Source: Sipunculus nudus (taxonomy: Eukaryota > Annelida > Sipuncula > Golfingiida > Sipunculidae). From it: 64,000 nucleotides of DNA. Below the pieces are notes generated by a model that saw only the letters and a list, made by a program, of their open reading frames with translations, was not told the origin of the DNA and made no database searches. Shown in pieces: positions 11,403-64,000 of this stretch. The position numbers and the translations under genes are program-made. The stretch lies in contig CM049318.1 of NCBI GenBank assembly GCA_026874595.1, positions 41,272,456 through 41,336,455 on the forward strand, given 5' to 3'. The stretch's first letter is position 1, and each line of letters starts with the position of its first letter.

Positions 11403-11506
11403 ATGGGTAGTTCAGCCGGGCCGATCTGGGCTCTTCTTATCTGGACCATACTGACCGCACCGACCGACCGCCTATGGACCCATGCTGCAGCCGACGCCGA
11501 AAATCC
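11403..11506 (+). CDS. Exon 1: start codon and signal peptide
   Basis: Initiation at 11403 is supported by the AAACCATGG context, the TATA box 182 bp upstream and an immediate hydrophobic core ([12 protein letters not shown]). Cleavage is likely in the Ala-rich stretch (THAAADA) near residues 27-31. The exon ends AAATCC/gtaagt with two bases left over (phase 2). Confidence 0.88.
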
Positions 11507-14500: not shown

Positions 14501-15103
14501 ATGAACAGATGACTGAGGCCGCACATATAGAGGATTCGGAATGCCCAAAAGAGAAGACGAGGATTCAGTCAAAACTTCTTTGCGTCGAACTCGCATATAT
14601 GGTGAAGCTGTTGATCCAGAATAATATTACTACAAAATAAGGTCGCACTTTGAACGAGTCCGAGTTTTTTGTCGGTCCCTTCTGTTTCCGACTAAACGGG
14701 GGAGTACTGTAATTCATATTGAAATAAAATGAGGATTATTGGCGTCAAAAGTTTAGGTGACGTTAACGATATCTTGTAGATGTGACAGACCAGCTCAAGT
14801 ACTGTTACCGCCGAAATAGCTGTTTCGGAGACAAACCAGAGGGCGCTGATGGGATGGTCATGACAATGCAAGAGTGCTGTAAAAACAAGAAAGGTGGAGG
14901 CTGGGGTATCCAGGGCGGCGAGTGCAATGCTTGTCCAACTGATGGTGATTCCGACGATGACGATGGATTCTCTGATAAGCCATCTGGTAAAATTTATCTC
15001 CATGGTTACTGCAGCCACTGATACATGTAATGTATGTTTTATTAATAAGTAATTATTATATATGTTGTACGAAAAAAGTGTATATATATATATATAAATA
15101 TAA

Positions 15104-37582: not shown

Positions 37583-37634
<52 letters not shown>

Positions 37635-37682
37635 TTCAGGGTCTCTGAGTGACATATTCAACTATATATATATACATATATA

Positions 37683-37724
<42 letters not shown>

Positions 37725-40611: not shown

Positions 40612-40648
<37 letters not shown>

Positions 40649-49600: not shown

Positions 49601-52600
49601 AATTACATTTCATTAGTGATTATCGCTGTATTACTGATTACAAGCAATTTCATTGTACCATCAAAATCCTCTATCTGCAAGTTAATCCTCAGACCCAGTA
49701 TTAGGGACTCGTTCCAGTGCCTTAATGATCAGCATTTCACCTATCCCCGAGCCACATGCATACAAATTAATATCTATATCTAAAAAGCTGAACTGAAACA
49801 TATCAATCTTATCTGAGGCTTTCAGGAATACTTAACATTTGTAGTCGATGGTTAATTGATTTGAGATACCCCATCTTTCACTGGATGTGCTTTCCATTGA
49901 CTCTGTGACACCAAAGAACAATCGGTAATGTTCGCACAAACACTGTAGCTGGGAAACAGTGCTGCCGTTACATGCCCCTTTAGTTTTATTGTGGATTGAT
50001 TCAATGATTCATGGGTTTAATGTTTTTCCATATGATCAGAAACAGTCTTTTTATTGTCTATAATGAAATCTGCTCATTAAAGGTCAACTGATGGATAAAA
50101 TAGGCATGATGAAGTAGCCTTTTGATGTGTAAAGTTGTTAATATAGCCATATGTGTGATGCTGACCATATAACTTAATACACGGTTATTACATTTAGCAA
50201 CAGTAATGCTGATTCAATGATCTGTAATGAGAAGAGGAACGATAAAAGGAAACATCTTAGATATTTATCAAGAAGCAGTTACTGCCATGAAATTGTTCTC
50301 ATGGTCTTTTAATCCTTACATTATAACACTAACATATAAGAAAATATAAATAAGTATGACATGAAATATTTCATAATGTAACTGTAACTGGTAAAAACAT
50401 TGGTTTTTAAACAGACCCTAAAAATTCCTAAAAATATTCTGAAGGCACAAATATCTCATTTTTATCTGAAAGAAATATGATAAATGCCATTTACAGGACC
50501 ATGTTAACTTTAGGCCATGTGCCTGGCTTCTTGAAAACATTATTGATAAACACACTTACTGTATTTCATAATTATACACACAGAGTTTTGATGGATTGAC
50601 TGGAGCTGAAACCAATATAAATGCAACTCCATCTCCAGGATATATGGGCAGTGTTCTTATAGTGGAATTAACCAGAACAGGGACCACTGTTCCAATGGTG
50701 TACAGCTTCCATGCAATCTTCTGTGGCCCAAAGGGTAAGATGTTTCAGATACCTGCAAACCAATGACTGGATATATAGATGTATTATATTAATTAATTCA
50801 ATGCTAGTTTATCTATTCTATAGAGCAATTTGTCAACAATTTAACAAAATATTCAGAACATAAACAGATGATGCATTTGATAACTCTTTGTATGCTTAAA
50901 TCAACAGAGCCTGCTCTGGTCTTTCTTTTTAACAGAATGGCTTAATTTGATTAAGTATTGTGTAACCATATCTTTCTTAATCCTTGCTACAACATATGCC
51001 ATTTTCAATTCCTACTCGCATTTAAGCATAGTATCTACTCTTACTTTCATCCAAACAGTGACACCAACAAGCACTGTCACCCACACTCCAACCTCTACCC
51101 CTACTACACCGTATACTCCAACTATTACACCAACTGGAACACCAACTGTGACACCAACTGGAACACAAACATACACTCCAACTGGGACACCAACTGGGAC
51201 ACCTACCTACACACCAACAGTGACACCAACTGTGACACCAACTTATACACCAACATACACACCAACAGTGACACTTACATACACACCAACAGTGACACCA
51301 ACTGTGACACCAACATACACACCAACAGTGACACCAACATACACACCAACAATGACACCAACAGTAACACCAACCTACACACCAACAGTTACACCAACAG
51401 TGACACCAACCTACACACCAACAGTTACACCAACAGTGACACCAACTGTGACATCAACCTACACACCAACTGTGACACAAACATACACACCAACTGTGAC
51501 ACAAACTGTGACACCAACATACACACCAACAGTGACATACACAACAACCATTACACCAACTGAAACCCAAACAGTGACATACACACCAACAGCCACTCCA
51601 ACAGTCACACCAACAGTTACGTACACACCAACTGCCACACCAACAACTACTCCAACTGTGACTTACACACCAACAGGTACACCAACCTACACCCCAACAG
51701 TGACACCAACTGGTACACCAACATACACACCAACAGTTACACCAACAGGTACACTAACTGTTACACCAACTGCAACCCCAACAGTTACATACACACCAAC
51801 AGCCACTCCAACCGTCACACCAACAGTTACTTACACACAAACGGTCACTCCAACTGCTACTCCAACTGTGACATACACACCAACAGTGACATCAACTGCT
51901 ACTCCAACTGTGACATACACACCAACAGTGACATCAACTGGTACACAAACCTACACACCAACAGTGACACAAACAGGTACACCAACCTACACCCAAACAG
52001 TGACACCAACAGGTACACCAACCTACACCCCAACAGTGACACCGTCAGGTACACCAACCTCCACCCCAACAGTGACACCAACAGGTACACCAACCTACAC
52101 CCAAACAGTGACACCAACAGGTACACCAACCTACACACCAACAGTGACACCAACAGGTACACCAACTGGCACTCCAACTGTGACATACACACCAACAGTG
52201 ACATATACACCAACAGTTACACCAACAGTGACTTATACACCAACTGTCACTCCAACAGTCACCTCAACAGTGACTCCAACAGTGACACCAACAATCACAT
52301 ACACACCAACAGTTACACCAACAGTGACACCAACAGCCACACCAACAGTGACTTATACACCAACAGTCACTCCAACTGGCACTCCAACTGTGTCATACAC
52401 ACCAACAGTGACATCAACAGCCGCACCAACAATCACATACACACCAACAGTTACACCAACAGTGACACCAACAGCCACACCAACAGTGACTTATACACCA
52501 ACAGTCACTCCAACTGGCACTCCAACTGTGACATACACACCAACAGTGACACCAACAGCCACACCAACAGTGACACCAACAGTGACTTACACACCAACTG

Positions 52601-55600
52601 TCACTCCAACAGTCACCTCAACAGTGACCCCAACAGTGACACCAACAGCAACACCAACAGTGACATACACACCAACCCTTACACCAACAGTTACACCAAC
52701 AGCCACACCAACAGTGACTTATACACCAACAGTCACTCCAACTGGCACCCCAACTGTGACATTCACACCAACAGTGACACCAACAGCCACACCAACAGTT
52801 ACACAAACAGTGACTTACACACCAACTGTCACTCCAACAGTCACCTCAACAGTGACTCCAACAGTGACTCCAACAGCAACACCAACACTGACATACACAC
52901 CAACCATTACACCTACAGTAACACCAACAGTCACACCAACTGGCACTCCAACTGTGACATACACACCAACAGTGACATATACACCAACAGTTACACCAAC
53001 AGTGACTTATACACCAACAGTCACTCCAACTGCTACTCCAACTGTCACATACACTCCAACAGTGACACCAACAATCACATACACACCAACAGTTACACCA
53101 ACAGTGACACCAACAGCCACACCAACAGTGACTTATACACCAACAGTCACTCCAACTGGCACTCCAACTGTGACATACACACCAACAGTGACACCAACAG
53201 CCACACCAACAGTGACTTATACACCAACAGTCACTCCAACTGGCACTCCAACTGTGACATACACACCAACAGTGACACCAACAGCCACACCAACAGTTAC
53301 ACCAACAGTGACTTACACACCAACTGTCACTCCAACAGTCACCTCAACAGTGACTCCAACAGTGACACCAACAGCAACACCAACACTGACATACACACCA
53401 ACCATTACACCTACAGTAACACCAACAGTAACACCAACAGCAACACCAACAGTGACATACACACCAACCCTTACACCAACAGTTACACCAACAACCACAC
53501 CAACAGTGACTTATACACCAACAGTCACTCCAACTGGCACTCCAACTATGACATTCACACCAACAGTGACACCAACAGCCACACCAACAGTTACACCAAC
53601 AGTGACTTACACTCCAACAGTCACCTCAACAGTGACTCCAACAGTGACACCAACAGCAACACCAACACTGACATACACACCAACCATTACACCTACAGTA
53701 ACACCAACAGTAACACCAACAGTCACACCAACTGGCACTCCAACTGTGACATACACACCAACAGTGACATATACACCAACAGTTACACCAACAGCCACAC
53801 CAACAGTGACTTATACACCAACAGTCACTCCAACTGCTTCTCCAACTGTCACATACACTCCAACAGTGACACCAACAATCACATACACACCAACAGTTAC
53901 ACCAACAGCCACACCAACAGTCACTTATACACCAACAGTCACTCCAACTGGCACTCCAACTGTGACATACACACCAACAGTTACACCAACAGTGACACCA
54001 ACAGCCACACCAACAGTGACTTATACACCAACAGTCACTCCAACTGGCACTCCAACTGTGACATACACACCAACAGTGACACCAACAGCCACACCAACAG
54101 TTACACCAACAGTGACTTACACACCAACTGTCACTCCAACTGTGACATACACACCAACAGTGACACCAACAGCAACACCAACAGTGACATACACACCAAC
54201 CATTACACCTACAGTTACACCAACAGTAACACCAACAGTCACACCAACTGGCACTCCAACTGTGACATACACACCAACTGTCACTCCAACAGTCACTCCA
54301 ACAGTGACCCCAACAGTGACAGCAACAGCAACACCAACAGTGACATACACACCAACCCTTACACCAACAGTTACACCAACAGCCACACCAACAGTGACTC
54401 ATACACCAACAGTCACTCCAACTGCTACTCCAACTGTCACATACACACCAACAGTGACACCAACAGCCACACCAACAGTGACTTATACACCAACAGTCAC
54501 TCCAACTGGCACTCCAACTGTGACATACACACCAACATTGACACCAACAGCCACACCAACAGTTACACCAACAGTGACTTACACACCAACTGTCACTCCA
54601 ACTGGCACTCCAACTGTGACATACACACCAACAGTGACACTAACAGCCACACCAACAGTGACTTATACACCAACAATCACTCCAACTGGCACTCCAACTG
54701 TGACATACACACCAACAGTGACACCAACAGCCACACCAACAGTTACACCAACAGTGACTTACACACAAACTGTCACTCCAACAGTCACCTCAACAGTGAC
54801 TCCAACAGTGACACCAACAGCAACACCAACACTGACATACACACCAACCATTACACCTACAATAACACCAACAGTAACACCAACAGTCACACCAACTGGC
54901 ACTCCAACTGTGACATACTCACCAACAGTGACATATACACCAACAGTTACACCAACATCCACACCAACAGTGACTTATACACCAACAGTCACTCCAACTG
55001 CTACTCCAACTGTCACATACACTCCAACAGTGACACCAACAATCACATACACACCAACAGTTACACCAACAGCCACACCAACAGTGACTTATACACCAAC
55101 AGTCACTCCAACTGGCACTCCAACTGTAACATACACACCAACAGTGACACCAACAGCCACACCAACAGTTACACCAACAGTGACTTACACACCAACTGTC
55201 ACTCGAACAGTCACTCCAACAGTGACCCAAACAGTGACATCAACAGCAACACCAACAGTGACATACACACCAACCCTTACACCAACAGTTACACCAACAG
55301 CCACACCAACAGTGACTTATACACCAACAGTCACTCCAACTGGCACTCCAACTGTGACATACACACCAACAGTCACACCAACAGCCACACCAACAGTTAC
55401 ACCAACAGTGACTTACACACCAACTGTCACTCCAACAGTCACCTCAACAGTGACTCCAACAGCAACACCAACACTGACATACACACCAACTATTACACCA
55501 ACAGTCACACCAACTGGCACTCCAACTGTGACATACACACCAACAGTCACATATACACCAACAGTTACACCAACAGCCACACCAACAGTGACTTATACAC

Positions 55601-58600
55601 CAACAGTCACTCCAACTGCTACTCCAACTGTCACATACACTCCAACAGTGACACCAACAGCCACACCAACAGCTACACCAACAGTGACCCCAACAGTGAC
55701 ATCAACAGCAACACCAACAGTGACATACACACCAACCCTTACACCAACAGTTACACCAACAGCCACACCAACAGTGACTTATACACCAACAGTCACTCCA
55801 ACTGGCACTCCAACTGTGACATACACACCAACAGTCACACCAACAGCCACACCAACAGTTACACCAACAGTGACTTACACACCAACTGTCACTCCAACAG
55901 TCACCTCAACAGTGACTCCAACAGCAACACCAACACTGACATACACACCAACTATTACAGCTACAGTAACACCAACAGTAACACCAACAGTCACACCAAC
56001 TGGCACTCCAACTGTCACATACACTCCAACAGTGACACCAACAATCACATACACACCAACAGTTACACCAACAGTTACACCAACAGTTACACCAACAGCC
56101 ACACCAACAGTGACTTATACACCAACAGTCACTCCAACTGGCACTCCAACTGTGACATACACACCAACAGTGACACCAACAGTGACACCAACAGCCACAC
56201 CAACAGTGACTTATACACCAACAGTCACTCCAACTGCTACTCCAACTGTCACATACACACCAACAGTGACACCAACAGTGACACCAACAGCCACACCAAC
56301 AGTGACTTATACACCAACAGTCACTCCAACTGGCACTCCAACTGTGACATACACACCAACAGTGACACCAACAGCCACACCAACAGTGACTTATACACCA
56401 ACAGTCACTCCAACTGGCACTCCAACTGTGACATACACACCAACAGTGACACCAACAGCCACACCAACAGTTACACCAACAGTGACTTACACACCAACTG
56501 TCACTCCAACAGTCACCTCAACAGTGAGTCCAACAGCAACACCAACAGTGACATACACACCAACCATTACACCTACAGTAACACCAACAATAACACCAAC
56601 AGTCACACCAACTGGCACTCCAACTGTGACATACACAACAACAGTGACATATACACCAACAGTTACACCAACAGCCACACCAACAGTGACTTATACACCA
56701 ACAGTCACTCCAACTGCTACTCCAACTGTCACATACACTCCAACAGTGACACCAACAATCACATACACACCAACAGTCACACCAACAGTGACACCAACAG
56801 CCACACCAACAGTGACTTATACACCAACAGTCACTCCAACTGGCACTCCAACTGTGACATACACACCAACAGTCACACCAACAGCCACACCAACAGTTAC
56901 ACCAACAGTGACTTACACACCAACTGTCACTCCAACAGTCACCTCAACAGTGACTCCAACAGCAACACCAACACTGACATACACACCAACTATTACAGCT
57001 ACAGTAACACCAACAGTAACACCAACAGTCACACCAACTGGCACTCCAACTGTCACATACACTCCAACAGTGACACCAACAATCACATACACACCAACAG
57101 TTACACCAACAGTTACACCAACAGTTACACCAACAGCCACACCAACAGTGACTTATACACCAACAGTCACTCCAACTGGCACTCCAACTGTGACATACAC
57201 ACCAACAGTGACACCAACAGTGACACCAACAGCCACACCAACAGTGACTTATACACCAACAGTCACTCCAACTGCTACTCCAACTGTCACATACACACCA
57301 ACAGTGACACCAACAGTGACACCAACAGCCACACCAACAGTGACTTATACACCAACAGTCACTCCAACTGGCACTCCAACTGTGACATACACACCAACAG
57401 TGACACCAACAGCCACACCAACAGTGACTTATACACCAACAGTCACTCCAACTGGCACTCCAACTGTGACATACACACCAACAGTGACACCAACAGCCAC
57501 ACCAACAGTTACACCAACAGTGACTTACACACCAACTGTCACTCCAACAGTCACCTCAACAGTGAGTCCAACAGCAACACCAACAGTGACATACACACCA
57601 ACCATTACACCTACAGTAACACCAACAATAACACCAACAGTCACACCAACTGGCACTCCAACTGTGACATACACAACAACAGTGACATATACACCAACAG
57701 TTACACCAACAGCCACACCAACAGTGACTTATACACCAACAGTCACTCCAACTGCTACTCCAACTGTCACATACACTCCAACAGTGACACCAACAATCAC
57801 ATACACACCAACAGTCACACCAACAGTGACACCAACAGCCACACCAACAGTGACTTATACACCAACAGTCACTCCAACTGGCACTCCAACTGTGACATAC
57901 ACACCAACAGTCACACCAACAGCCACACCAACAGTTACACCAACAGTGACTTACACACCAACTGTTACTCCAACAGTCACCTCAACAGTGACTCCAACAG
58001 TGACACAAACAGCAACACCAACACTGACATACTCACCAACCATTACACCTACAGTAACACCAACAGTAACACCAACAGTCACACCAACTGGCACTCCAAC
58101 TGTGACATACACACCGACAGTGACATATACACCAACAGTTACACCAACAGCCACACCAACAGTGACTTATACACCAACAGTCACTCTAACTGCTACTCCA
58201 ACTGTGACATACACACCAACAGTTACACCAACAGTGACACCAACAGCCACACCAACAGTGACTTATACACCAACAGTCACTCCAACTGGCACTCCAACTG
58301 TGACATACCCATCAACAGTTGCACCAACAGTGACACCAACAGCCACACCAACAGTGACTTATACACCAACAGTCACTCCAACTGGCACTCCAACTGTGAC
58401 ATACACACCAACAGTGACACCAACTGCCACACCAACAGTTACACCAACAGTGACTTACACACCAACTGTCACTCCAACAGTCACCTCAACTGTGACTCCA
58501 ACAGCAACACCAACACTGACATACACACCAACAATTACACCTACAGTAACACCAACAGTAACACCAACAGTCACACCAACTGGCACTCCAACTGTGACAT

Positions 58601-61600
58601 ACACACCAACAGTGACATATACACCAACAGTTACACCAACAGCCACACCAACAGTGACTTATACACCAACAGTCACTCCAACTGCTACTCCAACTGTCAC
58701 AAACACTCCAACAGTGACACCAACAATCACATACACACCAACAGTCACACCAACAGTGACACCAACAGCCACACCAACAGTGACTTATACACCAACAGTC
58801 ACTCCAACTGGCACTCCAACTGTGACATACACACCAACAGTGACACCAACACCCACACCAACAGTTACACCAACAGTGACTTACACACCAACTGTCACTC
58901 CAACTGTCACTCCAACAGTTACCCCAACAGTGACATCAACAGCAACACCAACAGTGACATACACACCAACCCTTACACCAACAGTTACACCAACAGCCAC
59001 ACCAACAGTGACTTATACACCAACAGTCACTCCAACTGGCACTCCAACTGTGACATACACACCAACAGTCACACCAACAGCCACACCAACAGTTACACCA
59101 ACAATGACTTACACACCAACTGTCACTCCAACAGTCACCTCAACAGTGACTCCAACAGCAACACCAACACTGACATACACACCAAGTATTACACCAACAG
59201 TGACTTACACACCAACTGGCACTCCAACTGTGACATACACACCAACAGTCACATATACACCAACAGTGACACCAACAGCCACACCAACAGTGACTTATAC
59301 ACCAACAGTCACTCCAACTGCTACTCCAACTGTCACATACACTCCAACAGTGACACCAACAGCCACACCAACAGCTACACCAACAGTGACCCCAACAGTG
59401 ACATCAACAGCAACACCAACAGTGACATACACACCAACCCTTACACCAACAGTTACACCAACAGCCACACCAACAGTGACTTATACACCAACAGTCACTC
59501 CAACTGGCACTCCAACTGTGACATACACACCAACAGTCACACCAACAGCCACACCAACAGTTACACCAACAGTGACTTACACACCAACTGTCACTCCAAC
59601 AGTCACCTCAACAGTGACTCCAACAGCAACACCAACACTGACATACACACCAACTATTACAGCTACAGTAACACCAACAGGAACACCAACAGTCACACCA
59701 ACTGGCACTCCAACTGTCACATACACTCCAACAGTGACACCAACAATCACATACACACCAACAGTTACACCAACAGTTACACCAACAGCCACACCAACAG
59801 TGACTTATACACCAACAGTCACTCCAACTGGCACTCCAACTGTGACATACACACCAACAGTGACACCAACAGTGACACCAACAGCCACACCAACAGTGAC
59901 TTATACACCAACAGTCACTCCAACTGCTACTCCAACTGTCACATACACACCAACAGTGACACCAACAGTGACACCAACAGCCACACAAACAGTGACTTAT
60001 ACACCAACAGTCACTCCAACTGGCACTCCAACTGTGACATACACACCAACAGTGACACCAACAGCCACACCAACAGTGACTTATACACCAACAGTCACTC
60101 CAACTGGCACTCCAACTGTGACATACACACCAACAGTGACACCAACAGCCACACCAACAGTTACACCAACAGTGACTTACACACCAACTGTCACTCCAAC
60201 AGTCACCTCAACAGTGACTCCAACAGCAACACCAACAGTGACATACACACCAACCATTACACCTACAGTAACACCAACAGTAACACCAACAGTCACACCA
60301 ACTGGCACTCCAACTGTGACATACACACCAACAGTGACATATACACCAACAGTTACACCAACAGCCACACCAACAGTGACTTATACACCAACAGTCACTC
60401 CAACTGCTACTCCAACTGTCACATACACTCCAACAGTGACACCAACAATCACATACACACCAACAGTCACACCAACAGTGACACCAACAGCCACACCAAC
60501 AGTGACTTATACACCAACAGTCACTCCAACTGGCACTCCAACTGTGACATACACACCAACAGTCACACCAACAGCCACACCAACAGTTACACCAACAGTG
60601 ACTTACACACCAACTGTTACTCCAACAGTCACCTCAACAGTGACTCCAACAGTGACACAAACAGCAACACCAACACTGACATACACACCAACCATTACAC
60701 CTACAGTAACACCAACAGTAACACCAACAGTCACACCAACTGGCACTCCAACTGTGACATACACACCGACAGTGACATATACACCAACAGTTACACCAAC
60801 AGCCACACCAACAGTGACTTATACACCAACAGTCACTCTAACTGCTACTCCAACTGTGACATACACACCAACAGTTACACCAACAGTGACACCAACAGCC
60901 ACACCAACAGTGACTTATACACCAACAGTCACTCCAACTGGCACTCCAACTGTGACATACCCATCAACAGTTACACCAACAGTGACACCAACAGCCACAC
61001 CAACAGTGACTTATACACCAACAGTCACTCCAACTGGCACTCCAACTGTGACATACACACCAACAGTGACACCAACTGCCACACCAACAGTTACACCAAC
61101 AGTGACTTACACACCAACTGTCACTCCAACAGTCACCCCAACAGTGACTCCAACAGCAACACCAACACTGACATACACACCAACAATTACACCTACAGTA
61201 ACACCAACAGTAACACCAACAGTCACACCAACTGGCACTCCAACTGTGACATACACACCAACAGTGACATATACACCAACAGTTACACCAACAGCCACAC
61301 CATCAGTGACTTATACACCAACAGTCACTCCAACTGCTACTCCAACTGTCACATACACTCCAACAGTGACACCAACAATCACATACACACCAACAGTCAC
61401 ACCAACAGTGACACCAACAGCCACACCAACAGTGACTTATACACCAACAGTCACTCCAACTGGCACTCCAACTGTGACATACACACCAACAGTGACACCA
61501 ACAGCCACACCAACAGTTACACCAACAGTGACTTACACACCAACTGTCACTCCAACAGTGACCCCAACAGTGACATCAACAGCAACACCAACAGTGACAT

Positions 61601-64000
61601 ACACACCAACCCTTACACCAACAGTTACACCAACAGCCACACCAACAGTGACTTATACACCAACAGTCACTCCAACTGGCACTCCAACTGTGACAGACAC
61701 ACCAACAGTCACACCAACAGCCACACCAACAGTTACACCAACAGTGACTTACACACCAACTGTCACTCCAACAGTCACCTCAACAGTGACTCCAACAGCA
61801 ACACCAACACTGACATACACACCAACTATTACACCAACAGTCACACCAACTGGCACTCCAACTGTGACATACACACCAACAGTGACATATACACCAACAG
61901 TTACACCAACAGCCACACCAACAGTGACTTATACACCAACAGTCACTCCAACTGCTACTCCAACTGTCACATACACTCCAACAGTGACACCAACAGCCAC
62001 ACCAACAGCTACACCAACAGTGACCCCAACAGTGACATCAACAGCAACACCAACAGTGACATACACACCAACCCTTACACCAACAGTTACACCAACAGCC
62101 ACACCAACAGTGACTTATACACCAACAGTCACTCCAACTGGCACTCCAACTGTGACCTACACACCAACAGTCACACCAACAGCCACACCAACAGTTACAC
62201 CAACAGTGACTTACACACCAACTGTCACTCCAACAGTCACCTCAACAGTGACTCCAACAGCAACACCAACACTGACATACACACCAACTATTACAGCTAC
62301 AGTAACACCAACAGTAACACCAACAGTCACACCAACTGGCACTCCAACTGTCACATACACTCCAACAGTGACACCAACAATCACATACACACCAACAGTT
62401 ACACCAACAGTTACACCAACAGCCACACCAACAGCCACACCAACAGTGACTTTTACACCAACAGTCACTCCAACTGGCACTCCAACTGTGACATACACAC
62501 CAACAGTGACACCAACAGTGACACCAACAGCCACACCAACAGTGACTTATACACCAACAGTCACTCCAACTGCTACTCCAACTGTCACATACACACCAAC
62601 AGTGACACCAACAGTGACACCAACAGCCACACCAACAGTGACTTATACACCAACAGTCACTCCAACTGGCACTCCAACTGTGACATACACACCAACAGTG
62701 ACACCAACAGCCACACCAACAGTGACTTATACACCAACAGTCACTGCAACTGGCACTCCAACTGTGACATACACACCAACAGTGACACCAACAGCCACAC
62801 CAACAGTTACACCAACAGTGACTTACACACCAACTGTCACTCCAACAGTCACCTCAACAGTGACTCCAACAGCAACACCAACAGTGACATACACACCAAC
62901 CATTACACCTACAGTAACACCAACAGGAACACCAACAGTCACACCAACTGGCACTCCAACTGTGACATACACACCAACAGTGACATATACACCAACAGTT
63001 ACACCAACAGCCACACCAACAGTGACTTATACACCAACAGTCACTCCAACTGCTACTCCAACTGTCACATACACTGCAACAGTGACACCAACAATCACAT
63101 ACACACCAACAGTCACACCAACAGTGACACCAACAGCCACACCAACAGTGACTTATACACCAACAGTCACTCCAACTGGCACTCCAACTGTGACATACAC
63201 ACCAACAGTCACACCAACAGCCACACCAACAGTTACACCAACAGTGACTTACACACCAACTGTTACTCCAACAGTCACCTCAACAGTGACTCCAACAGTG
63301 ACACAAACAGCAACACCAACACTGACATACACACCAACCATTACACCTACAGTAACACCAACAGTAACACCAACAGTCACACCAACTGGCACTCCAACTG
63401 TGACATACACACCGACAGTGACATATACACCAACAGTTACACCAACAGCCACACCAACAGTGACTTATACACCAACAGTCACTCTAACTGCTACTCCAAC
63501 TGTGACATACACACCAACAGTTACACCAACAGTGACACCAACAGCCACACCAACAGTGACTTATACACCAACAGTCACTCCAACTGGCACTCCAACTGTG
63601 ACATACACACCAACAGTGACACCAACTGCCACACCAACAGTTACACCAACAGTGACTTACACACCAACTGTCACTCCAACAGTCACCTCAACAGTGACTC
63701 CAACAGCAACACCAACACTGACATACACACCAACAATTACACCTACAGTAACACCAACAGTAACACCAACAGTCACACCAACTGGCACTCCAACTGTGAC
63801 ATACACACCAACAGTGACATATACACCAACAGTCACTCCAACTGCTACTCCAACTGTCACATACACTCCAACAGTGACACCAACAATCACATACACACCA
63901 ACAGTCACACCAACAGTGACACCAACAGCCACACCAACAGTGACTTATACACCAACAGTCACTCCAACTGGCACTCCAACTGTGACATACACACCAACAG
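11403..64000 (+). CDS. Giant secreted SCO-spondin/mucin-like protein, 59 exons, 3' partial
   Basis: One + strand gene fills the rest of the window. Exon by exon the frame is continuous: exons 1-58 sum to 9,385 nt and exon 59 adds at least 12,942 nt. All introns follow GT-AG. Approximate residue order: signal peptide 1-30; EMI-like 36-124; EGF-like 124-159; TB/properdin-like 159-228; vWD1 228-409, C8 410-508, TIL 508-600; vWD2 600-801, C8 802-883, TIL units 883-1085; vWD3 1085-1272, C8 1273-1353, TIL 1353-1440; LDLa x4 1445-1611; seven two-Cys modules with Thr/Pro linkers 1611-3128 (one more LDLa between modules 6 and 7); then the Thr-alternating mucin tract from 3129. Such families are secreted, disulfide-multimerised and O-glycosylated. 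Closest named architecture by domain order is SCO-spondin (EMI, vWD x3, LDLa, F5/8C) with a mucin tail; orthology is not claimed. Most introns are AT-rich and featureless; exceptions are listed. Confidence 0.88.
11507..12518 (+). other. Intron 1
   Basis: AT-rich intron with poly-A and poly-T runs. No repeat element or nested gene is recognised. A reverse-strand open frame near 12237-12479 has no domain character. Confidence 0.7.
12519..12722 (+). CDS. Exon 2: N-terminal part of EMI-like domain
   Basis: Acceptor ttctttccag, donor CCG/gtaggt. The segment opens with a Y-C-D-Y phrase, like the start of EMI domains. It is polar, with an internal NxS glycosylation sequon (N-A-S) and three Cys. It joins exon 3 in frame to give the typical EMI ending. 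Central EMI cysteines are sparse, hence EMI-like. Confidence 0.8.
13194..13255 (+). CDS. Exon 3: C-terminal part of EMI-like domain
   Basis: 62-nt exon after ctctcttcag, donor CAAC/gtaagt. It encodes [18 protein letters not shown]. The R-x-V-x-R-C-C-x-G-W-x-G-x-x-C pattern is the hallmark end of EMI domains (as in emilins and multimerins) and leads into an EGF-like module. Confidence 0.85.
13256..13992 (+). other. Intron 3
   Basis: AT-rich, with nothing recognised apart from the long pyrimidine tract before the acceptor (13967-13990). Confidence 0.65.
13993..14097 (+). CDS. Exon 4: EGF-like module
   Basis: Acceptor cctttttccag, donor GGCTG/gtaagt, phase 1 at the end. Six Cys in EGF order: [12 protein letters not shown], then [13 protein letters not shown]. 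The N-G-G-x-C and C-x-C-P-P-G-F/Y phrases are diagnostic. No calcium-binding D-x-D/N-E prefix is present. Confidence 0.88.
14209..14643 (+). other. Two coding-like islands inside intron 4
   Basis: Island A (open 14209-14393) has Cys-rich, coding-like sequence including C-S-P-F-N-G-M and Q-C-L-Q-G-G-F-Y-Y. Island B (about 14502-14643) ends in a stop after a helical-looking stretch with two Cys. They are splice-compatible (CAGGC/gtgttt to tatttag/TCATGAACAG) and would give a short open product from ATG 14251 or from an earlier exon. Neither fits between exons 4 and 5, whose junction is already in frame. They may be an alternative 3' end, a nested gene or a duplicated fragment. Family unrecognised. 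Confidence 0.3.
14780..14986 (+). CDS. Exon 5: TB/properdin-like cysteine module and acidic spacer
   Basis: Acceptor tatcttgtag, donor CATCTG/gtaaaa. Cys pattern C-Y-R-R-N-S-C, M-T-M-Q-E-C-C, G-G-G-W-G, then C-N-A-C-P resembles the TB (8-Cys) fold of fibrillins/LTBPs, and particularly the N-terminal module of properdin. It is followed by an acidic D/S-rich spacer (DGDSDDDDG) before the first vWD. One TB cysteine is missing relative to the 8-Cys consensus. Confidence 0.82.
15061..15152. repeat. (TA)n microsatellite in intron 5
   Basis: Nearly uninterrupted TA dinucleotides from about 15078 to 15151, broken by AAATATAAATATAAT near 15097. It is intronic. Confidence 0.85.
15259..15443 (+). CDS. 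Exon 6: vWD domain 1, first part
   Basis: Acceptor tttcaatttcag, donor CAGAAG/gtaatt, phase 0. Opens the domain with [14 protein letters not shown], followed by an F-S-G-x-C-A-Y-T-V-F strand. The G-D-P-H cleavage motif is absent (G-P-N-Y at that place), so no autocatalytic cleavage is expected in this domain. Confidence 0.9.
15543..15721. mobile_element. Tigger/pogo-like MITE in intron 6
   Basis: Termini CAGTAGAACCCCGC and GTGGGGTTCCACTG are inverted copies. The similarity continues inward to a GACCACC phrase. TA lies just before the left end. The short non-coding body and CAGTRGAACC ends fit pogo/Tigger-derived MITEs. The right-hand TA is two bases off, so the duplication is not perfect. 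Confidence 0.55.
16315..16432 (+). CDS. Exon 7: vWD domain 1, middle
   Basis: Acceptor ttcatgtcag, donor GCTCAG/gttggg (a weaker donor). Encodes beta-strand-like sequence K-I-T-I-I-P-N-Q and [10 protein letters not shown], typical of the vWD core. Phase 0 in, phase 1 out. Confidence 0.85.
16829..16993 (+). CDS. Exon 8: vWD domain 1, GLCG calcium-loop region
   Basis: Acceptor ttctttgcag, donor CTGA/gtgagt. Contains F-M-R-I-K-W-D (core strand) and [10 protein letters not shown], the vWD calcium-site motif. The preceding Cys that would make C-G-L-C is absent. Confidence 0.9.
17237..17313 (+). CDS. Exon 9: end of vWD domain 1
   Basis: Short 77-nt exon after tacatccag, ending AACGAG/gtagct in phase 0. 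Encodes N-D-M-K-M-L-S-G-N and F-G-N-S-Y-K, the usual F-G-N-S-W-type ending of vWD domains. Confidence 0.85.
17911..18024 (+). CDS. Exon 10: C8 domain 1, first half
   Basis: Acceptor tatttttacag, donor TCCACC/gtaagc, phase 0 both sides. Cys spacing C-P-D-A, M-C-Q-T, E-C-S-R-L and S-N-C-H marks the start of a C8 domain following vWD1. Confidence 0.85.
18388..18568 (+). CDS. Exon 11: C8 domain 1, second half
   Basis: Acceptor tttgttcag, donor CTGTC/gtgagt. [20 protein letters not shown] and V-V-V-E-W-R-T match the C8 consensus (C-x-x-D-x-C, Y-x-x-x-C, W-R-x-x-x-C). Confidence 0.9.
18871..19111 (+). CDS. Exon 12: TIL domain 1 and start of TILa
   Basis: Acceptor tccttttgcag, donor TCTTG/gtgagt. 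[27 protein letters not shown] and C-I-A-A-D-E-C-P-C follow the trypsin-inhibitor-like Cys-rich pattern. In this arrangement the TIL is structural rather than inhibitory. The exon splits a C-N-S-C-T-C motif with exon 13. Confidence 0.9.
19112..19958 (+). other. Intron 12
   Basis: AT-rich with a 9-T run near 19363. Open frames at 19826-20104 run into exon 13 in the wrong register and are shadows. No element recognised. Confidence 0.6.
19959..20100 (+). CDS. Exon 13: TILa end and start of vWD domain 2
   Basis: Acceptor ttgcttccag, donor CTGGAG/gtaaat, phase 0 out. R-G-R-W-E-C-T closes the TILa/VWC-like loop. [21 protein letters not shown] opens vWD2, with G-N-Q-H where the cleavable motif is G-D-P-H. 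Confidence 0.88.
20388..20464 (+). CDS. Exon 14: vWD domain 2, second part
   Basis: 77-nt exon, acceptor tttacacacag, donor GGAAA/gtgagt. [11 protein letters not shown] corresponds to the vWD strand with its conserved Cys. Confidence 0.85.
20681..20930 (+). CDS. Exon 15: vWD domain 2, core
   Basis: Acceptor tcctttacag, donor CGCAAG/gtacat, phase 0 out. [17 protein letters not shown] and I-Y-V-T-L-E-P are the core strands before the calcium loop. It is unusually rich in His, Lys and Met for this protein. Confidence 0.88.
21186..21356 (+). CDS. Exon 16: vWD domain 2, GLCGNYNGD and end
   Basis: Acceptor ttttatag, donor ATGCAG/gtatat, phase 0 both ends. [11 protein letters not shown] is a textbook calcium-site loop. 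F-G-H-S-Y-R ends the domain. Confidence 0.9.
21357..21920 (+). other. Intron 16
   Basis: AT-rich; a locally GC-richer patch (21600-21760) shows no coding frame and may be a repeat fragment. Nothing else recognised. Confidence 0.5.
21921..22164 (+). CDS. Exon 17: C8 domain 2
   Basis: Acceptor tgcttttcag, donor GTTCAG/gtaaga. A complete C8 in one exon: [32 protein letters not shown] and I-T-V-D-W-F. In domain assemblies 1 and 3 the C8 is split over two exons. Confidence 0.9.
22699..22963 (+). CDS. Exon 18: TIL domain 2 and start of TILa
   Basis: Acceptor attattcacag, donor AACTG/gtaggt. [30 protein letters not shown]. As in exons 12 and 27, it ends inside the C-x-x-C-x-C motif at the same phase (2), a sign of duplicated assemblies. 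Confidence 0.9.
23244..23442 (+). CDS. Exon 19: TILa end and TIL domain 3, first part
   Basis: Acceptor aaccttgcag, donor CATGAT/gtaaga, phase 0. [11 protein letters not shown] is the TILa end. [15 protein letters not shown] and G-C-G-C-P-D-G begin a second TIL in tandem. Confidence 0.87.
23740..23831 (+). CDS. Exon 20: TIL domain 3 end
   Basis: Acceptor gcatttcag, donor GAATA/gtatgt. [13 protein letters not shown] ends the TIL. A following N-R-T sequon and I-G-C-K-E-Y begin the next TILa. Confidence 0.85.
23861..23895. repeat. (TA)n microsatellite in intron 20
   Basis: About 34 bases of alternating TA, intronic. Confidence 0.85.
24092..24141 (+). CDS. Exon 21: TILa end
   Basis: 50-nt exon after tttactttcag, donor CCCAG/gtgagt. 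[10 protein letters not shown] closes TILa and C-P leads to vWD3. Confidence 0.82.
24277..24624 (+). CDS. Exon 22: vWD domain 3 with GDPH motif
   Basis: Acceptor ttctttaag (AAG), donor GGAG/gtaaga. Opens [13 protein letters not shown], with G-D-P-H at 24294-24305. In gel-forming mucins and related vWD proteins this sequence undergoes Asp-Pro cleavage at low pH. The rest holds conserved vWD cysteines ([11 protein letters not shown]) and core strands. The exon merges regions that span several exons in vWD1 and vWD2. Confidence 0.92.
25100..25314 (+). CDS. Exon 23: vWD domain 3, GLCGDFN and end
   Basis: Acceptor cgtccccag, donor TGCAAA/gtaata, phase 0. [16 protein letters not shown] is the calcium-binding loop. 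A-F-G-N-C-W-K ends the domain. Confidence 0.92.
25630..25760 (+). CDS. Exon 24: C8 domain 3, first half
   Basis: Acceptor gtctttctag, donor TGCGG/gtaaat. [23 protein letters not shown] fit C8. Confidence 0.88.
26007..26116 (+). CDS. Exon 25: C8 domain 3, second half
   Basis: Acceptor taaacttacag, donor TGTGTC/gtgagt. [17 protein letters not shown] and V-E-W-R end the C8. Same end phase as exon 11. Confidence 0.88.
26536..26685 (+). CDS. Exon 26: TIL domain 4, first part
   Basis: Acceptor cctcgttccag, donor CGATG/gtaaga. [18 protein letters not shown] and [12 protein letters not shown] are strong TIL motifs. Confidence 0.9.
27348..27447 (+). CDS. Exon 27: TIL domain 4, end
   Basis: Acceptor aatattgcag, donor AACTG/gttggt (weak donor, but in phase with exons 12 and 18). 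[12 protein letters not shown] and [10 protein letters not shown] end the TIL and start TILa. Confidence 0.85.
27734..27894 (+). CDS. Exon 28: TILa end and LDLa repeat 1
   Basis: Acceptor actcattttag, donor CTGCA/gtaagt. [10 protein letters not shown] then a class A LDL-receptor repeat: [22 protein letters not shown]. The calcium-binding acidic residues (D-G-x-x-D-C-x-D-x-S-D-E) are intact. Confidence 0.92.
28197..28313 (+). CDS. Exon 29: LDLa repeat 2
   Basis: Symmetric 117-nt exon (phase 1-1), acceptor ttatttgcag, donor TGCG/gtaatg. [23 protein letters not shown]: a complete LDLa with intact calcium site. Confidence 0.92.
28481..28609 (+). CDS. Exon 30: LDLa repeat 3
   Basis: Symmetric 129-nt exon, acceptor aatcccgcag, donor TACAG/gtaaac. 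[26 protein letters not shown]: an LDLa with a short insertion before the S-D-E motif. Confidence 0.9.
28915..29031 (+). CDS. Exon 31: LDLa repeat 4
   Basis: Symmetric 117-nt exon, acceptor tattttatag, donor TGCG/gtatgt. [25 protein letters not shown]: intact calcium site. Confidence 0.92.
29407..29642 (+). CDS. Exon 32: two-Cys module R1, first half
   Basis: Acceptor ttgtctaacag, donor GGCACT/gtaagt, phase 1 in and 0 out. First copy of the seven-fold module. Starts E-K-C-E-A-V-W-L-A. Strand-like T-I-V-L-T-I-H-G and V-T-T-V-H-L-W-V-H follow. It is the most diverged copy and lacks the D-A-L-x-G-S-x-x-x-W stretch seen in R2 and R7. Confidence 0.82.
29997..30165 (+). CDS. Exon 33: two-Cys module R1, second half
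   Basis: Acceptor atgttttcag, donor ACCAC/gtaagc, phase 0 in and 1 out. Ends L-A-V-K-A-C-Y-T-P, the second Cys of the module. The phase pattern (1, 0, 1) is kept by every copy. Confidence 0.82.
30405..30458 (+). CDS. Exon 34: Thr-rich linker
   Basis: Symmetric 54-nt exon (18 codons), acceptor tgtcatcacag, donor CTACAG/gtatgt. Encodes [17 protein letters not shown], a likely O-glycosylated hinge. Skipping it would keep the frame. Confidence 0.78.
30649..30932 (+). CDS. Exon 35: two-Cys module R2, first half
   Basis: Acceptor cttctccag, donor GGCAGT/gtaagt. Starts [26 protein letters not shown] resembles the S-x-x-x-A-L-D-G-x-x-x-T-x-W stretch of F5/8C (discoidin) domains. [11 protein letters not shown] is a core strand. 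Confidence 0.85.
31378..31537 (+). CDS. Exon 36: two-Cys module R2, second half
   Basis: Acceptor aaatttgcag, donor CACGG/gtaagc. Ends [12 protein letters not shown] with the second Cys. Confidence 0.85.
31741..32355 (+). CDS. Exon 37: 39-bp minisatellite linker fused to start of module R3
   Basis: Acceptor ccactcccgtag, donor CATGA/gtgagt. After V-T-T-I-V-T come 12 full units of [14 protein letters not shown] (13 residues, 39 bp) and a degenerate 13th. Then [12 protein letters not shown] begins module R3 in the same exon, unlike other modules, which start a new exon. Thr is about half of the repeat, with regular His/Glu or His/Asp. The reverse strand is also open across the repeat, a composition shadow. 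Confidence 0.88.
31758..32262 (+). repeat. Coding minisatellite, 39-bp unit, about 13 copies
   Basis: Units such as ACCACGCCAGGAACCACACC are nearly identical from 31990 to 32240, with more varied flanking copies. Variation alternates Y-H-T with Y-I-T and H-E with H-D. Copy number is expected to vary between individuals. Confidence 0.92.
33022..33194 (+). CDS. Exon 38: module R3, middle part
   Basis: Acceptor tattactgcag, donor ACCAAC/gtgagt, phase 1 in and 0 out. Strand-like [16 protein letters not shown]. The acidic D-E-D-E-H region matches no other copy. R3 thus has one extra intron. Confidence 0.82.
33556..33712 (+). CDS. Exon 39: module R3, end
   Basis: Acceptor ccctctgtag, donor CACCAA/gtgagt. 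Ends [13 protein letters not shown] with the second Cys. [11 protein letters not shown] resembles the ends of R4 and R5. Confidence 0.85.
34152..34193 (+). CDS. Exon 40: Thr/Pro linker
   Basis: Symmetric 42-nt exon, acceptor ttcgttacag, donor CACAG/gtaatt. [14 protein letters not shown]. First of four consecutive mini-exons linking R3 and R4. Confidence 0.75.
34194..35222 (+). other. Intron 40 with a GC-richer island
   Basis: 34600-35110 is GC-richer than its surroundings, with inverted CCAAT-type boxes (GATTGG near 35016 and 35077) and no supported exon. It could be an old repeat or an internal regulatory region. I see no matching end repeats. Confidence 0.4.
35223..35267 (+). CDS. Exon 41: Thr/Pro linker
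   Basis: Symmetric 45-nt exon, acceptor tttctttcag, donor CAACGG/gtaagt. [15 protein letters not shown]. Confidence 0.75.
35695..35757 (+). CDS. Exon 42: Thr/Pro linker
   Basis: Symmetric 63-nt exon, acceptor acaattacag, donor CACGCA/gtaagt. [15 protein letters not shown]. Reading frame continues past the donor into intron, but the donor consensus and neighbouring phases favour splicing here. Confidence 0.75.
36301..36372 (+). CDS. Exon 43: Thr/Pro linker
   Basis: Symmetric 72-nt exon, acceptor gttccatacag, donor ACAACAA/gtacgt. [15 protein letters not shown]. Confidence 0.75.
36879..37180 (+). CDS. Exon 44: two-Cys module R4, first half
   Basis: Acceptor tttcattcag, donor CAAACG/gtatag, phase 1 in, 0 out, 302 nt (same length as exon 48). 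G-M-Y-C-P-E-D opens. [15 protein letters not shown] corresponds to the discoidin-like Trp stretch. [16 protein letters not shown] is a core strand pair. Confidence 0.87.
37527..37983. mobile_element. hAT-like MITE in intron 44
   Basis: The ends CAGTGGCGTCAATTT and AAATTGACGCCCCTG are inverted copies with one mismatch. CAG-G-GGCGT termini are typical of hAT elements. The body has two long (TA)n tracts (about 37570-37629 and 37660-37721) and G/C runs. No coding sequence; an 8-bp target duplication is not evident. Confidence 0.55.
38034..38184 (+). CDS. Exon 45: two-Cys module R4, second half
   Basis: Acceptor ttcaccacag, donor CACCAG/gtatat. [21 protein letters not shown] and S-L-E-V-H-F-C-T-P form the clearest consensus of the second half, shared closely with R5. 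Confidence 0.88.
38565..38603 (+). CDS. Exon 46: Thr/Pro linker
   Basis: Symmetric 39-nt exon, acceptor aatatttcag, donor ACAACAG/gtatgt. [13 protein letters not shown]. Confidence 0.73.
38883..38927 (+). CDS. Exon 47: Thr/Pro linker
   Basis: Symmetric 45-nt exon, acceptor tctattcacag, donor CACAG/gtatgt. [15 protein letters not shown]. Confidence 0.75.
39378..39679 (+). CDS. Exon 48: two-Cys module R5, first half
   Basis: Acceptor ctttgttcag, donor ACTGAG/gtatat, 302 nt. [15 protein letters not shown] opens (close to R6). [13 protein letters not shown] carries the conserved Trp. [12 protein letters not shown] ends the half. Confidence 0.88.
39758..40560. repeat. Probable interspersed element in intron 48
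   Basis: A block with higher CpG than its surroundings. It starts with a GCGAGGCGAGGGTTATTGC phrase and a (GT)n run (39801-39817), and ends with CCGTCTCCAGCGAGGGG. GCTGGAGACGG (39829 on) and CCGTCTCCAGC (40488 on) are inverted copies. A 13-G run is at 40333-40345. No protein frame. Boundaries uncertain. Confidence 0.4.
40612..40646. repeat. (TA)n microsatellite in intron 48
   Basis: About 33 bases of TA repeats. Confidence 0.85.
40831..40984 (+). CDS. Exon 49: two-Cys module R5, second half
   Basis: Acceptor tttgtttag, donor CAACCC/gtgagt. [21 protein letters not shown] and S-L-E-V-H-F-C-M-P: near-identical pattern to exon 45, showing recent module duplication. Confidence 0.88.
41479..41706 (+). 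CDS. Exon 50: Thr/Pro linker, long
   Basis: Symmetric 228-nt exon, acceptor tatttccag, donor CACAG/gtatga. Thr/Pro/Val/Ser-rich with few other residues; dense potential O-glycosylation between R5 and R6. Confidence 0.85.
41907..42042 (+). CDS. Exon 51: two-Cys module R6, first quarter
   Basis: Acceptor gcatgcag, donor GGGGAA/gtacgt. [13 protein letters not shown] parallels R5. It ends at A-G-S-P-E-G-K just before the conserved Trp, where R4 and R5 have no intron. Confidence 0.87.
42392..42551 (+). CDS. Exon 52: two-Cys module R6, second quarter
   Basis: Acceptor acaattgcag. K-W-E-A-S carries the module Trp. [12 protein letters not shown] corresponds to the last strand of exon 48. The donor AAG/gtcctt is weak but is placed by homology and phase 0. 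If it were skipped, the frame would read on to a stop at 42585. Confidence 0.8.
43093..43246 (+). CDS. Exon 53: two-Cys module R6, second half
   Basis: Acceptor ctgctgcag, donor CACCAC/gtaagt. [24 protein letters not shown]; same length (154 nt) as exon 49. Confidence 0.88.
43247..44146 (+). other. Intron 53
   Basis: Several short frames exist on both strands (43535-43900) but none has splice-framed or domain-like character. No repeat ends recognised. Confidence 0.5.
44147..44303 (+). CDS. Exon 54: Thr linker and first half of LDLa repeat 5
   Basis: Acceptor gatacatag, donor AACAG/gtcagt, phase 1 in and 2 out. Thr-rich linker, then [13 protein letters not shown], the first three Cys of an LDLa. 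The rest lies 2.86 kb downstream in exon 55. Confidence 0.82.
44409..44726 (+). mobile_element. tRNA-derived SINE with 13-bp target duplication
   Basis: A G-run is followed by a tRNA-like head. The A-box-like TAATGGCTAAGGTGTCGG lies near 44440 and the B-box-like GTGCGTTCTAATCCC near 44477. A central CCCTTGGGCAAGGTCCC phrase resembles shared SINE core domains reported from invertebrates. CCTATATGCAGCA occurs at 44396-44408 and again at 44727-44739, flanking the element exactly. Insertion is therefore direct-evidence retroposition, on the + strand. Confidence 0.8.
44740..47162 (+). other. Rest of intron 54
   Basis: Long AT-rich intron sequence with a (TA)n tract (45009-45022), the possible MITE above, and a G-rich tract (about 46591-46620). 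No exon is supported. The open frames at 46281-46544 and 47119-47349 (reverse) have no domain character. Confidence 0.5.
45603..45752. mobile_element. Possible pogo-like MITE in intron 54
   Basis: Left CAGTAAAACCTCC and right GGCGGGGTTTTACC are approximate inverted repeats. Internal GACCACC / GGTGGTCG phrases resemble the 15543-15721 element. Ends are degenerate. Confidence 0.4.
47163..47221 (+). CDS. Exon 55: second half of LDLa repeat 5
   Basis: 59-nt exon after ggttttacag, donor TGCG/gtacgt. [20 protein letters not shown] completes the LDLa. The calcium motif is present as D-x-x-x-D-C-x-D-G-x-D-E. Joins exon 54 in frame (AG plus C). Confidence 0.82.
47614..47778 (+). CDS. Exon 56: Thr/Pro linker
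   Basis: Symmetric 165-nt exon, acceptor cttttatag, donor CCAA/gtaagt. [16 protein letters not shown] and similar; separates LDLa 5 from R7. Confidence 0.85.
47779..49282 (+). other. Intron 56, with an anomalous CpG-rich block
   Basis: Mostly AT-rich, but 48620-49020 is CpG-rich, with many TACG, CGAAG and TTCGTGCCA words. TTCGTGCCA (near 48666) and TGGCACGAA (near 48904) are inverted. It has no coding frame and may be an unrecognised mobile element. The open frame 48064-48330 is low-complexity and not an exon. Confidence 0.4.
49283..49563 (+). CDS. Exon 57: two-Cys module R7, first half
   Basis: Acceptor tggttttag, donor CAGGAG/gtttgt, phase 1 in, 0 out. Y-I-C-E-D-V-I-H-V opens. [17 protein letters not shown] is the most discoidin-like Trp stretch of all copies. 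[12 protein letters not shown] closes the half. Confidence 0.87.
49564..50583 (+). other. Intron 57
   Basis: AT-rich; no element or exon recognised. Confidence 0.55.
50584..50734 (+). CDS. Exon 58: two-Cys module R7, second half
   Basis: Acceptor ttatacacacag, donor AAGG/gtaaga, 151 nt (same as exon 45). [10 protein letters not shown] and F-H-A-I-F-C-G-P-K with the second Cys. Includes an N-A-T sequon. Confidence 0.85.
51059..64000 (+). CDS. Exon 59: giant Thr-alternating mucin (PTS) domain, 3' partial
   Basis: Acceptor ttcatccaaacag, then an open frame to the window edge: at least 12,942 nt and about 4,313 codons with no stop and no frame shift. The polymer is Thr-X-Thr-X, X being Pro, Val, Ala, Tyr, Gly, Ile or Leu, as in [16 protein letters not shown]. 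Sampled every 60 bases from 51121 on, the codon is Thr (ACN) except GCA at 58321 and CCA at 60961. Where Thr is replaced it is often Ser, which keeps an O-glycosylation acceptor. Cys is absent and charged residues are very rare (Glu near 51562, Arg near 55204, Asp near 61696). It would form a dense O-glycan bottle-brush. Reverse-strand Val/Gly and Cys/Trp frames across it are shadows. Confidence 0.9.
55745..57826 (+). repeat. Tandem duplication of a 1038-bp coding block
   Basis: Sequence from about 55750 to 56788 recurs at +1038 (for example 55801 matches 56839, and 56101 matches 57139), nearly without mismatch, including private variants such as ATTACAGCTACAGTAACACC and ACAGTGAGTCCAACAGC. 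The period is 173 x 6 bp, so frame and Thr alternation survive. The near-identity suggests a young duplication, or gene conversion. Confidence 0.85.
57951..64000 (+). repeat. Higher-order coding repeat, period 2646-2652 bp
   Basis: Marker variants recur at matching offsets. ACTGTTACTCCAACAGTCACC is at 57961, 60613 and 63259. CACTCTAACTGCTACTCC is near 58183, 60835 and 63481. CACCGACAGTGACATAT is near 58112, 60764 and 63410. The offset is 2652 and then 2646 bp, both multiples of 6. The third copy runs off the window. Confidence 0.85.

Follow-up and report, generated by a model that had tools for sequence, protein, structure and literature searches.

A 27-kb exon with threonine at nearly every second codon, a probable O-glycosylated domain of a mucin-type gene in Sipunculus nudus

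A stretch of 64,000 nt of the Sipunculus nudus genome (assembly GCA_026874595.1, contig CM049318.1, here C13:41272456-41336455, forward strand; "the window") contains part of a gene with one very large exon in which Thr occupies almost every second codon, here called the Thr-X exon. Our data indicate that this exon is real, very probably coding and larger than first reported. Judged from the DNA sequence, it is likely to encode the main O-glycosylated, Pro/Thr/Ser-rich (PTS) domain of a mucin-type glycoprotein, a very large and probably secreted one that would form a gel or glue. The source assembly comprises 1.43 Gb in 153 contigs, and the 80 kb downstream were joined to the window to give 144 kb, in which a scan for N found none; coordinates above 64,000 are window numbering carried downstream.

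51059..64000, + strand: Thr-X exon, part inside the window; continues to 78310, phase 1 at both ends

The frame was taken from 51058, where the last base of the acceptor AG replaces the G left by the upstream exon; the codon is GTG both ways. From there to the end of the window it is stop-free over 4,314 codons (the split Val codon included), of which 2,149 encode Thr. An earlier note on this DNA had described a single uninterrupted frame of at least 12.9 kb with Thr at about every second codon over some 4,300 residues, and both claims hold. On one parity, the lattice, Thr takes 2,143 of 2,157 positions in the window, and the opposite parity holds only six Thr. The whole exon in the assembly sequence (51059-78310, + strand) measures 27,252 nt, or 9,084 codons with no stop. 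In the window part 4,275 of 4,313 neighbouring pairs alternate, compared with a maximum of 2,259 among 1,000 composition shuffles, and the autocorrelation of Thr at lag 2, a check that the note had proposed, is 0.981.

With 9,084 codons, 49.6% Thr (4,508 residues) and 20.5% Pro (1,858), followed by Val (1,333) and Tyr (554), the exon has the length and the Ser/Thr/Pro richness of a PTS domain. Its 4,542 lattice positions carry 4,498 Thr, 25 Ser, 8 Ile, 4 Pro, 4 Lys and 3 Ala. Charge is almost nil (Asp 1, Glu 5, Lys 4, Arg 4), and the exon encodes no Cys. Strict alternation holds for up to 1,131 residues at a stretch, and the 54 off-pattern residues fall into 52 single ones and one adjacent pair (51106-51111), with no shift of register. 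Relative to the 4,508 Thr, Pro occurs 1,835-1,842 times at each of -3, -1, +1 and +3, and 6-7 times at +2 or -2. A second frame, the third reading frame of the window, is also nearly open, with one stop in the window part. It holds 4,145 open codons at 51564-63998 and reads as text rich in Asn, Thr and His; we take it for a side effect of a repeat that lacks stops.

Internally the tract is organised in nested units and blocks, not as a plain polymer. The earlier description as a strict Thr-X-Thr-X polymer is right as to the Thr lattice and wrong in so far as the tract is not structureless, being composed of Tyr-ended units and larger repeated blocks. Spacings between Tyr/Phe residues (n=567) are 14 residues in 196 cases, 18 in 127, 10 in 66, 26 in 64, 22 in 41 and 6 in 40, and 539 of the 567 equal 2 mod 4. 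The commonest unit in the window, TPTVTPT[A/G]TPTVTY (14 residues), makes up 75 of the 238 units from 52188 onward. Larger blocks repeat at lags of 2652, 6336, 5298 and 1038 bp with an identity of 97.6-98%. Near copies were compared in 11 alignments, each of at least 500 bp and at least 94% identity; these contain 16 gaps (13 distinct), all of 6 or 12 bp, and none of the 13 is a gap of 1, 2 or 3 bp. The tract probably grew by exchange in 6-bp steps together with kilobase duplications.

The borders of the exon are compatible in phase with those of its neighbours, the modules M7 and M8. The donor at 78,310 (CAG/GTTAGA) leaves in phase 1, which matches the phase of M8, the module exon that follows from 79072. 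Upstream, the second exon of M7 ends in phase 1 (AAG G/GTAAGA) and joins the Thr-X exon in frame. The 5' end of the Thr-X exon is uncertain (50,936 or 51,059), and the frame of the tract is identical in both cases. The rival acceptor before 50,936 (score 4.41) is stronger than that before 51,059 and is also in frame; it would add 41 mostly hydrophobic residues (50936-51058), a segment that is probably intron. Within the window part of the tract the best internal donor scores 1.8 and the best internal acceptor 0.75. Internal splicing of this part is therefore unlikely, since the donors of twelve upstream model exons score 2.7-6.2.

A paralogue lies on the same chromosome. A 97-residue piece of the tract was searched against the same genome and 150 of 2,403 candidates were scored; among the matches listed were the Thr-X exon itself and one further locus, C13:50.08-50.13 Mb, 8.8 Mb distant, and the genome may hold further Thr-X loci. 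The region analysed (C13:50,030,001-50,150,000) excludes the first VWD-C8-TIL (D) set and the C-terminal end. The open frames listed for it resemble those of the window gene in kind and order, and six of them gave Pfam matches above cut-off to VWD (E 1.6e-22), LDLa (1.1e-12), TSP1 (7.1e-10) and TIL (6.9e-9). Two modules of the paralogue gave no Pfam match, like the modules of the window gene. Among open segments of at least 100 residues with a core score of at least 30, the paralogue has 12 Thr-X cores. Their lattice holds 4,876 Thr and 202 Ser in 5,171 positions, and the off-lattice positions hold 58 Thr and 966 Ser in 5,159 (sums by hand); the finder favours Ser/Thr on the lattice, so that the lattice figure is partly selected, but the scarcity of off-lattice Thr is not. 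The frequent repeat patterns differ from the units of the Thr-X exon, and in four cores (C13:50.066-50.076 Mb) Ser stands on 91 of 410 lattice positions. Because the paralogue's lattice uses another unit, and Ser in these four cores, what is kept seems to be the presence of a hydroxyl residue and not any one DNA unit. Blocks of a Thr-X frame plus a module (..AAPYRCVDIYHSEDIITTDSVDVSS..) recur at C13:50065696-50132751; since several look nearly identical, they were probably amplified recently.

Young mutations were compared in both genes. Each codon was set against its three closest other copies, a private change was called where those three agree, and the same base changes were placed randomly to obtain expected values; ten measures were tried per gene, and the p values are nominal. 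The Thr-X exon gave 7,582 eligible codons and 136 single-base private changes (one multi-base change of 137 was dropped), and the paralogue 7,519 codons and 175 changes (10 of 185 dropped). No stop occurred among the changes of the Thr-X exon, with 2.0 expected (p 0.13, not significant alone), nor among those of the paralogue, with 4.9 expected (p 0.0036). In the Thr-X exon, lattice codons show a depletion of replacements (29 observed, 41.7 expected, p 0.005) and X codons an excess (63 observed, 49.9 expected, upper-tail p 0.007). The open frame is maintained in both genes, and constraint on the lattice is visible in the Thr-X exon and not in the paralogue. We read this as a translated protein under weak single-site constraint, with homogenisation assisting. 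Among Pro codons CCA is near-fixed (1,799 of 1,858). A count on nine overlapping duplicate pairs was set aside, the pairs sharing sequence. The higher variability of third codon positions (1,345 of 4,542, against 28 and 16 at first and second positions) was not taken as proof of selection, because third-position variation is largely ACA/ACT shared between units.

The gene around the exon was modelled from an exon chain trained on the window together with Pfam; the model lacks the first exons and the signal peptide. Its features, in order, are given below.

13993..14097, + strand: EGF-like exon (PF07974 E 9e-4, below cut-off)
14767..15018, + strand: TB-like cysteine-rich open segment (PF00683 E 0.01, below cut-off)
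15259..19111, + strand: first VWD-C8-TIL set (exon chain and Pfam)
19959..22963, + strand: second VWD-C8-TIL set (exon chain and Pfam)
24092..26685, + strand: third VWD-C8-TIL set (VWD E 1.3e-33, C8 E 1.1e-15, TIL E 1.4e-8)
27654..29031, + strand: four LDLa repeats (PF00057 E 2.6e-42 over four stretches)
29407..30932, + strand: modules M1 and M2, separated by a small PTS exon (30405-30458); M2 is incomplete
31741..32285, + strand: PTS stretch with clustered Thr, 12.7 copies of a 39-bp unit (13 residues); the exon runs into the start of M3
32286..33712, + strand: module M3
34152..36372, + strand: four small class 1-1 Thr-rich exons (34152-34193, 35223-35267, 35695-35757, 36301-36372)
36824..38184, + strand: module M4 (approximate start; first exon identified by eye)
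38565..38927, + strand: two small class 1-1 PTS exons (38565-38603, 38883-38927)
39378..40984, + strand: module M5, two exons (1-0, 0-1)
41557..41706, + strand: PTS exon, class 1-1
41804..43246, + strand: module M6 of several exons, the first two identified by eye
44140..44268, + strand: PTS exon of the clustered type (ends approximate, outside the exon chain)
47135..47221, + strand: LDLa-like exon (PF00057 E 0.0026, below cut-off)
47557..47778, + strand: PTS exon of the clustered type (34 of 72 neighbouring pairs alternate)
49283..49563, + strand: discoidin-like module M7, first exon (46% identical to M8)
50584..50734, + strand: module M7, second exon, ending in phase 1 and splicing in frame to the Thr-X exon
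about 79072-79950, + strand: module M8, following the Thr-X exon

The VWD domains of the three D sets match with E values of 2.4e-12, 8e-12 and 1.3e-33, and C8 and TIL exceed the cut-off in each set. The solved chains nearest to the third VWD set are those of FCGBP, MUC5B, MUC2 and VWF. The window holds seven modules of about 145 residues, two of them incomplete, and no Pfam family matched any of the seven above cut-off. PF00754 gave a weak match (E 0.044-0.08) in one of the seven. We name the modules discoidin-like, with reserve, because their profile matches CBM32-type glucanase/chitosanase chains at E 0.003. Modules and small Thr-rich exons alternate, and the latter are of phase 1-1 wherever both ends could be placed; the Thr-X exon fills the last slot for a Thr exon, between M7 and M8. 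All six upstream PTS exons tested in the gene have clustered, not alternating, Thr. Downstream of the Thr-X exon are M8, four TSP1-like motifs (82.4-88.5 kb), a TIL domain and a weak cystine-knot match. Both TSP1-like motifs run on Pfam were above cut-off; PF00007 (Cys_knot, E 0.012) was below it, and a structure search returned no cystine-knot chain. Pfam gave no EMI match in the segments tested (the first exons not among them), though a sequence motif was seen, and no CysD in the segments tested, no search being aimed at CysD by name. Four open segments in window positions 1-12000 (about 1.7 to 6.1 kb) gave no Pfam match. Of the earlier reading, the large uninterrupted frame in a phase-compatible exon slot, the mucin-like character and the Thr lattice are supported.

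In such a protein, N-acetylgalactosamine (GalNAc) transferases of the endoplasmic reticulum and Golgi would load the Thr residues, dense O-GalNAc would extend the polypeptide to a long, neutral bottle-brush, and chains joined through their cysteine-rich ends would form a gel or adhesive. Glycosylated mucins rise about 2.5 angstrom per residue, so that the extended tract of 9,084 residues would span about 2.3 micrometres. The likeliest advantage of alternation would be that it packs Thr as densely as a transferase that skips neighbouring sites can still glycosylate; no Thr would be wasted beside another Thr, and Pro would be kept almost only at -3, -1, +1 and +3 of Thr, the favoured offsets. 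In the portions of a report on a snail GalNAc-transferase cited here, at most 8 of the 14 Thr of a MUC2 peptide were filled, adjacent residues never; the first Thr filled has Pro at -1, +1 and +3, and the Ser version of the peptide was a poor substrate, with four sites only (PMC4245494). We suggest, tentatively, that the Thr spacing is kept for the sake of glycosylation. A more specific proposal, which we hold to be rather doubtful, is that a register-locked glycan lattice evolved in which a hydroxyl at every second residue lets a neighbour-avoiding GalNAc-transferase fill all sites, with Tyr/Phe about every 16 residues as a contact or cross-link. If true, this lattice would amount to a neutral brush carrying stickers at regular intervals, a material design unlike that of clustered mucin repeats, and the sister genes would package it in two ways, in a single 27-kb exon and in 12 cores, several of which are followed by a module. 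Stacking or oxidative cross-linking of Tyr/Phe is possible. Sulfation of Tyr prefers acidic surroundings and is unlikely in the tract because acidic residues are almost lacking. A beta-strand turns by about 180 degrees per residue and has alternate side chains on one face; a polyproline-II helix turns by about -120 degrees per residue, and alternate residues there pass round all three faces. Polyproline-II geometry is plausible for a Pro-rich chain, and the two-faced brush proposed in the earlier note would hinge on which of the two geometries the backbone adopts.

Several points weigh against reading the exon as the glycosylated domain of a mucin. Expression and the protein are inferred here from the DNA sequence alone, and the acceptor before 51,059 scores weakly (0.17). 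Over all codons of the Thr-X exon, young replacements number 92 against 91.6 expected. The depletion at lattice codons has no counterpart in the paralogue (56 against 59.3 expected, p 0.31), and in three recent-duplicate pairs both replacements in general (23 of 39 single changes, 26.5 expected, p 0.14) and those at lattice codons (7 against 9.4, p 0.21) are close to expectation. As the paralogue shows no lattice-specific depletion, the lattice may owe its maintenance to homogenisation between repeats no less than to selection. In the snail enzyme study, as far as cited here, Thr-19 and Thr-21, which are two apart, were never filled together (PMC4245494), which speaks against complete occupancy of the lattice. 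The D-set motif is SGLCG at 16951 in the first set and EGLCG at 25141 in the third, so CGLC is absent in these two, and the motif pattern matched no site in the second. CGLC in D domains is a hallmark of mucins and VWF, and with SGLC and EGLC in its place a mucin-like disulfide assembly is not assured.

The best-surviving alternative, to which we give a minor though real share of the probability, accepts a coding, mucin-type exon and takes the alternation as a functionless by-product of expansion from a short Thr-X seed; it differs from our explanation in the last step alone. Exchange in 6-bp steps preserves the register without selection, lattice constraint on young mutations is modest in the Thr-X exon and absent in the paralogue, and Thr-X tracts occur in bacteria as well. 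However, replacements in the Thr-X exon are depleted on the lattice and in excess at X codons, and the paralogue keeps the lattice with different units and with Ser replacing Thr on it. The clustered PTS repeats elsewhere in the gene also argue that alternation is not the default.

Two further explanations fare worse. Mis-joined repeats could have inflated the length in the assembly, long tandem repeats being error-prone and some blocks 97.5-98% identical; this is improbable, as the blocks differ among themselves, the 27 kb contain neither an N nor a break of frame, and the lattice itself is independent of the exact length. Slightly less probable still is a non-coding intronic minisatellite, open by chance since its unit lacks a stop in this frame: a stop-free repeat stays open while growing, a second frame is nearly stop-free too and young replacements over the tract are near neutral, but the tract has phase-compatible splice sites at both ends, sister modules on both sides, no good internal donor or acceptor in the window part and no 1-, 2- or 3-bp gap among its distinct near-copy gaps, the two genes together show no stop among 311 single-base private changes (about 6.9 expected), and lattice, open frame and module-like neighbour frames recur in the paralogue.

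The composition of the Thr-X exon is ordinary for a mucin, since the second repeat domain of MUC2, in the part of the source cited, has 55.5% Thr and 21.7% Pro (PMC6269512). The exon is very large and no record, because repeat-exon alleles of human MUC4 reach 27,843 bp; MUC12 proteins reach 23,080 residues according to the same preprint, again in the part cited (PMC13345508). The gel-forming mucins (MUC2, MUC5AC, MUC5B, MUC6) share with the window gene D assemblies, one very large repeat exon and the Thr/Pro content, and the three N-terminal D1-D2-D3 (VWD-C8-TIL) sets by which they are recognised are found in it. They differ in that no CGLC occurs in two D sets of the window gene, and in the extent of alternation: the MUC2 unit, as printed in the excerpt cited, alternates strictly over 13 residues and has clusters elsewhere, whereas the Thr-X exon keeps its register over 9,084 residues. 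The strict contrast that the earlier note drew with vertebrate mucins was thus overstated, and the clustered repeats in the six upstream PTS exons weaken it further.

SCO-spondin offers a second comparison. Like it, the window gene has VWD-C8-TIL sets followed by LDLa repeats, then TSP1, a late TIL and possibly a cystine knot, the vertebrate order being that given in the part cited of PMC7333891. Unlike SCO-spondin, it has a 27-kb Thr-X exon and many PTS exons, EMI was not detected in the segments tested, and four TSP1-like motifs stand against numerous vertebrate copies. SCO-spondin also carries F5/8C and EMI domains. We file the window gene as SCO-spondin-like and mucin-type and as a member of neither family, because CGLC does not occur in two of its D sets and the cystine knot, discoidin assignment, TSP1 number and EMI are undecided. 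In the portion of PMC10475054 cited here, a study of snail mucus, vertebrate SCO-spondins are called known orthologues of invertebrate mucins. Among described animal proteins, the closest that we met is P-vulgata_3 of the limpet, which the cited part of PMC7333891 lists at 1,604 residues as a SCO-spondin-like glycosylated adhesive protein of pedal mucus. It has three VWD, two C8, two TIL and five LDLa domains; unlike the window gene, its domain list, as seen in that part, names no PTS tract, discoidin or TSP1 part (PMC7333891).

Thr-X alternation is not unique in kind. A survey of prokaryotes with a 60-residue query gave at least 595 candidate stretches, and in the ten loci confirmed the longest strict runs comprise 4 to 259 Thr. 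The run of 259 belongs to a Candidatus Goldiibacteriota metagenome-assembled genome (JAGNJD010000015.1, nt 2-3901), whose protein has at least 783 near-strict Thr-X residues (at least 95% alternation per 100-residue window); it differs from the Thr-X exon in its FlgD-Ig/CHU_C-like end domains and in Glu/Gln at many X positions, and is incomplete at the contig end. The Thr-Pro domain of Trypanosoma cruzi gp72 likewise contains brief Thr-X stretches, where O-glycosylation is predicted on 17 Thr and one Ser, but it covers fewer than 50 residues of a 59-kDa surface protein, as described in the part of the source cited (PMC3630849). A keyword search of the literature returned no account of a mucin with Thr at every second residue or of a Thr-rich tandem-repeat mucin with a giant exon, and a string search for short Thr-X sequences matched for T. 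cruzi only. For the length, the register and the setting in a mucin-type gene we met no counterpart elsewhere.

Mucin repeats are usually regarded as drifting freely while they stay rich in Ser, Thr and Pro. Why the Thr spacing is kept is a testable question, and a register of 9,084 residues together with a paralogue built of different units makes the role of spacing in transferase access, stiffness and adhesion open to experiment. The tract is also a ready-made sequence for synthetic glycopolymers of defined spacing. For proteomics it carries a warning, as trypsin would release hardly any peptides from a domain with 8 Lys/Arg in 9,084 residues.

After the mucin gene follows an open frame of 637 codons (97369-99279, + strand) with RING- and B-box-like Cys patterns, which by eye resembles TRIM. 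Elsewhere in the assembly at least 125 VWD matches occur, many of them clustered, for example at C1:91.3-91.6 Mb, C3:54.6-54.7 Mb, C11:74-75.7 Mb and C16:27.3-27.5 Mb, so the repertoire of VWD proteins in this genome is large.

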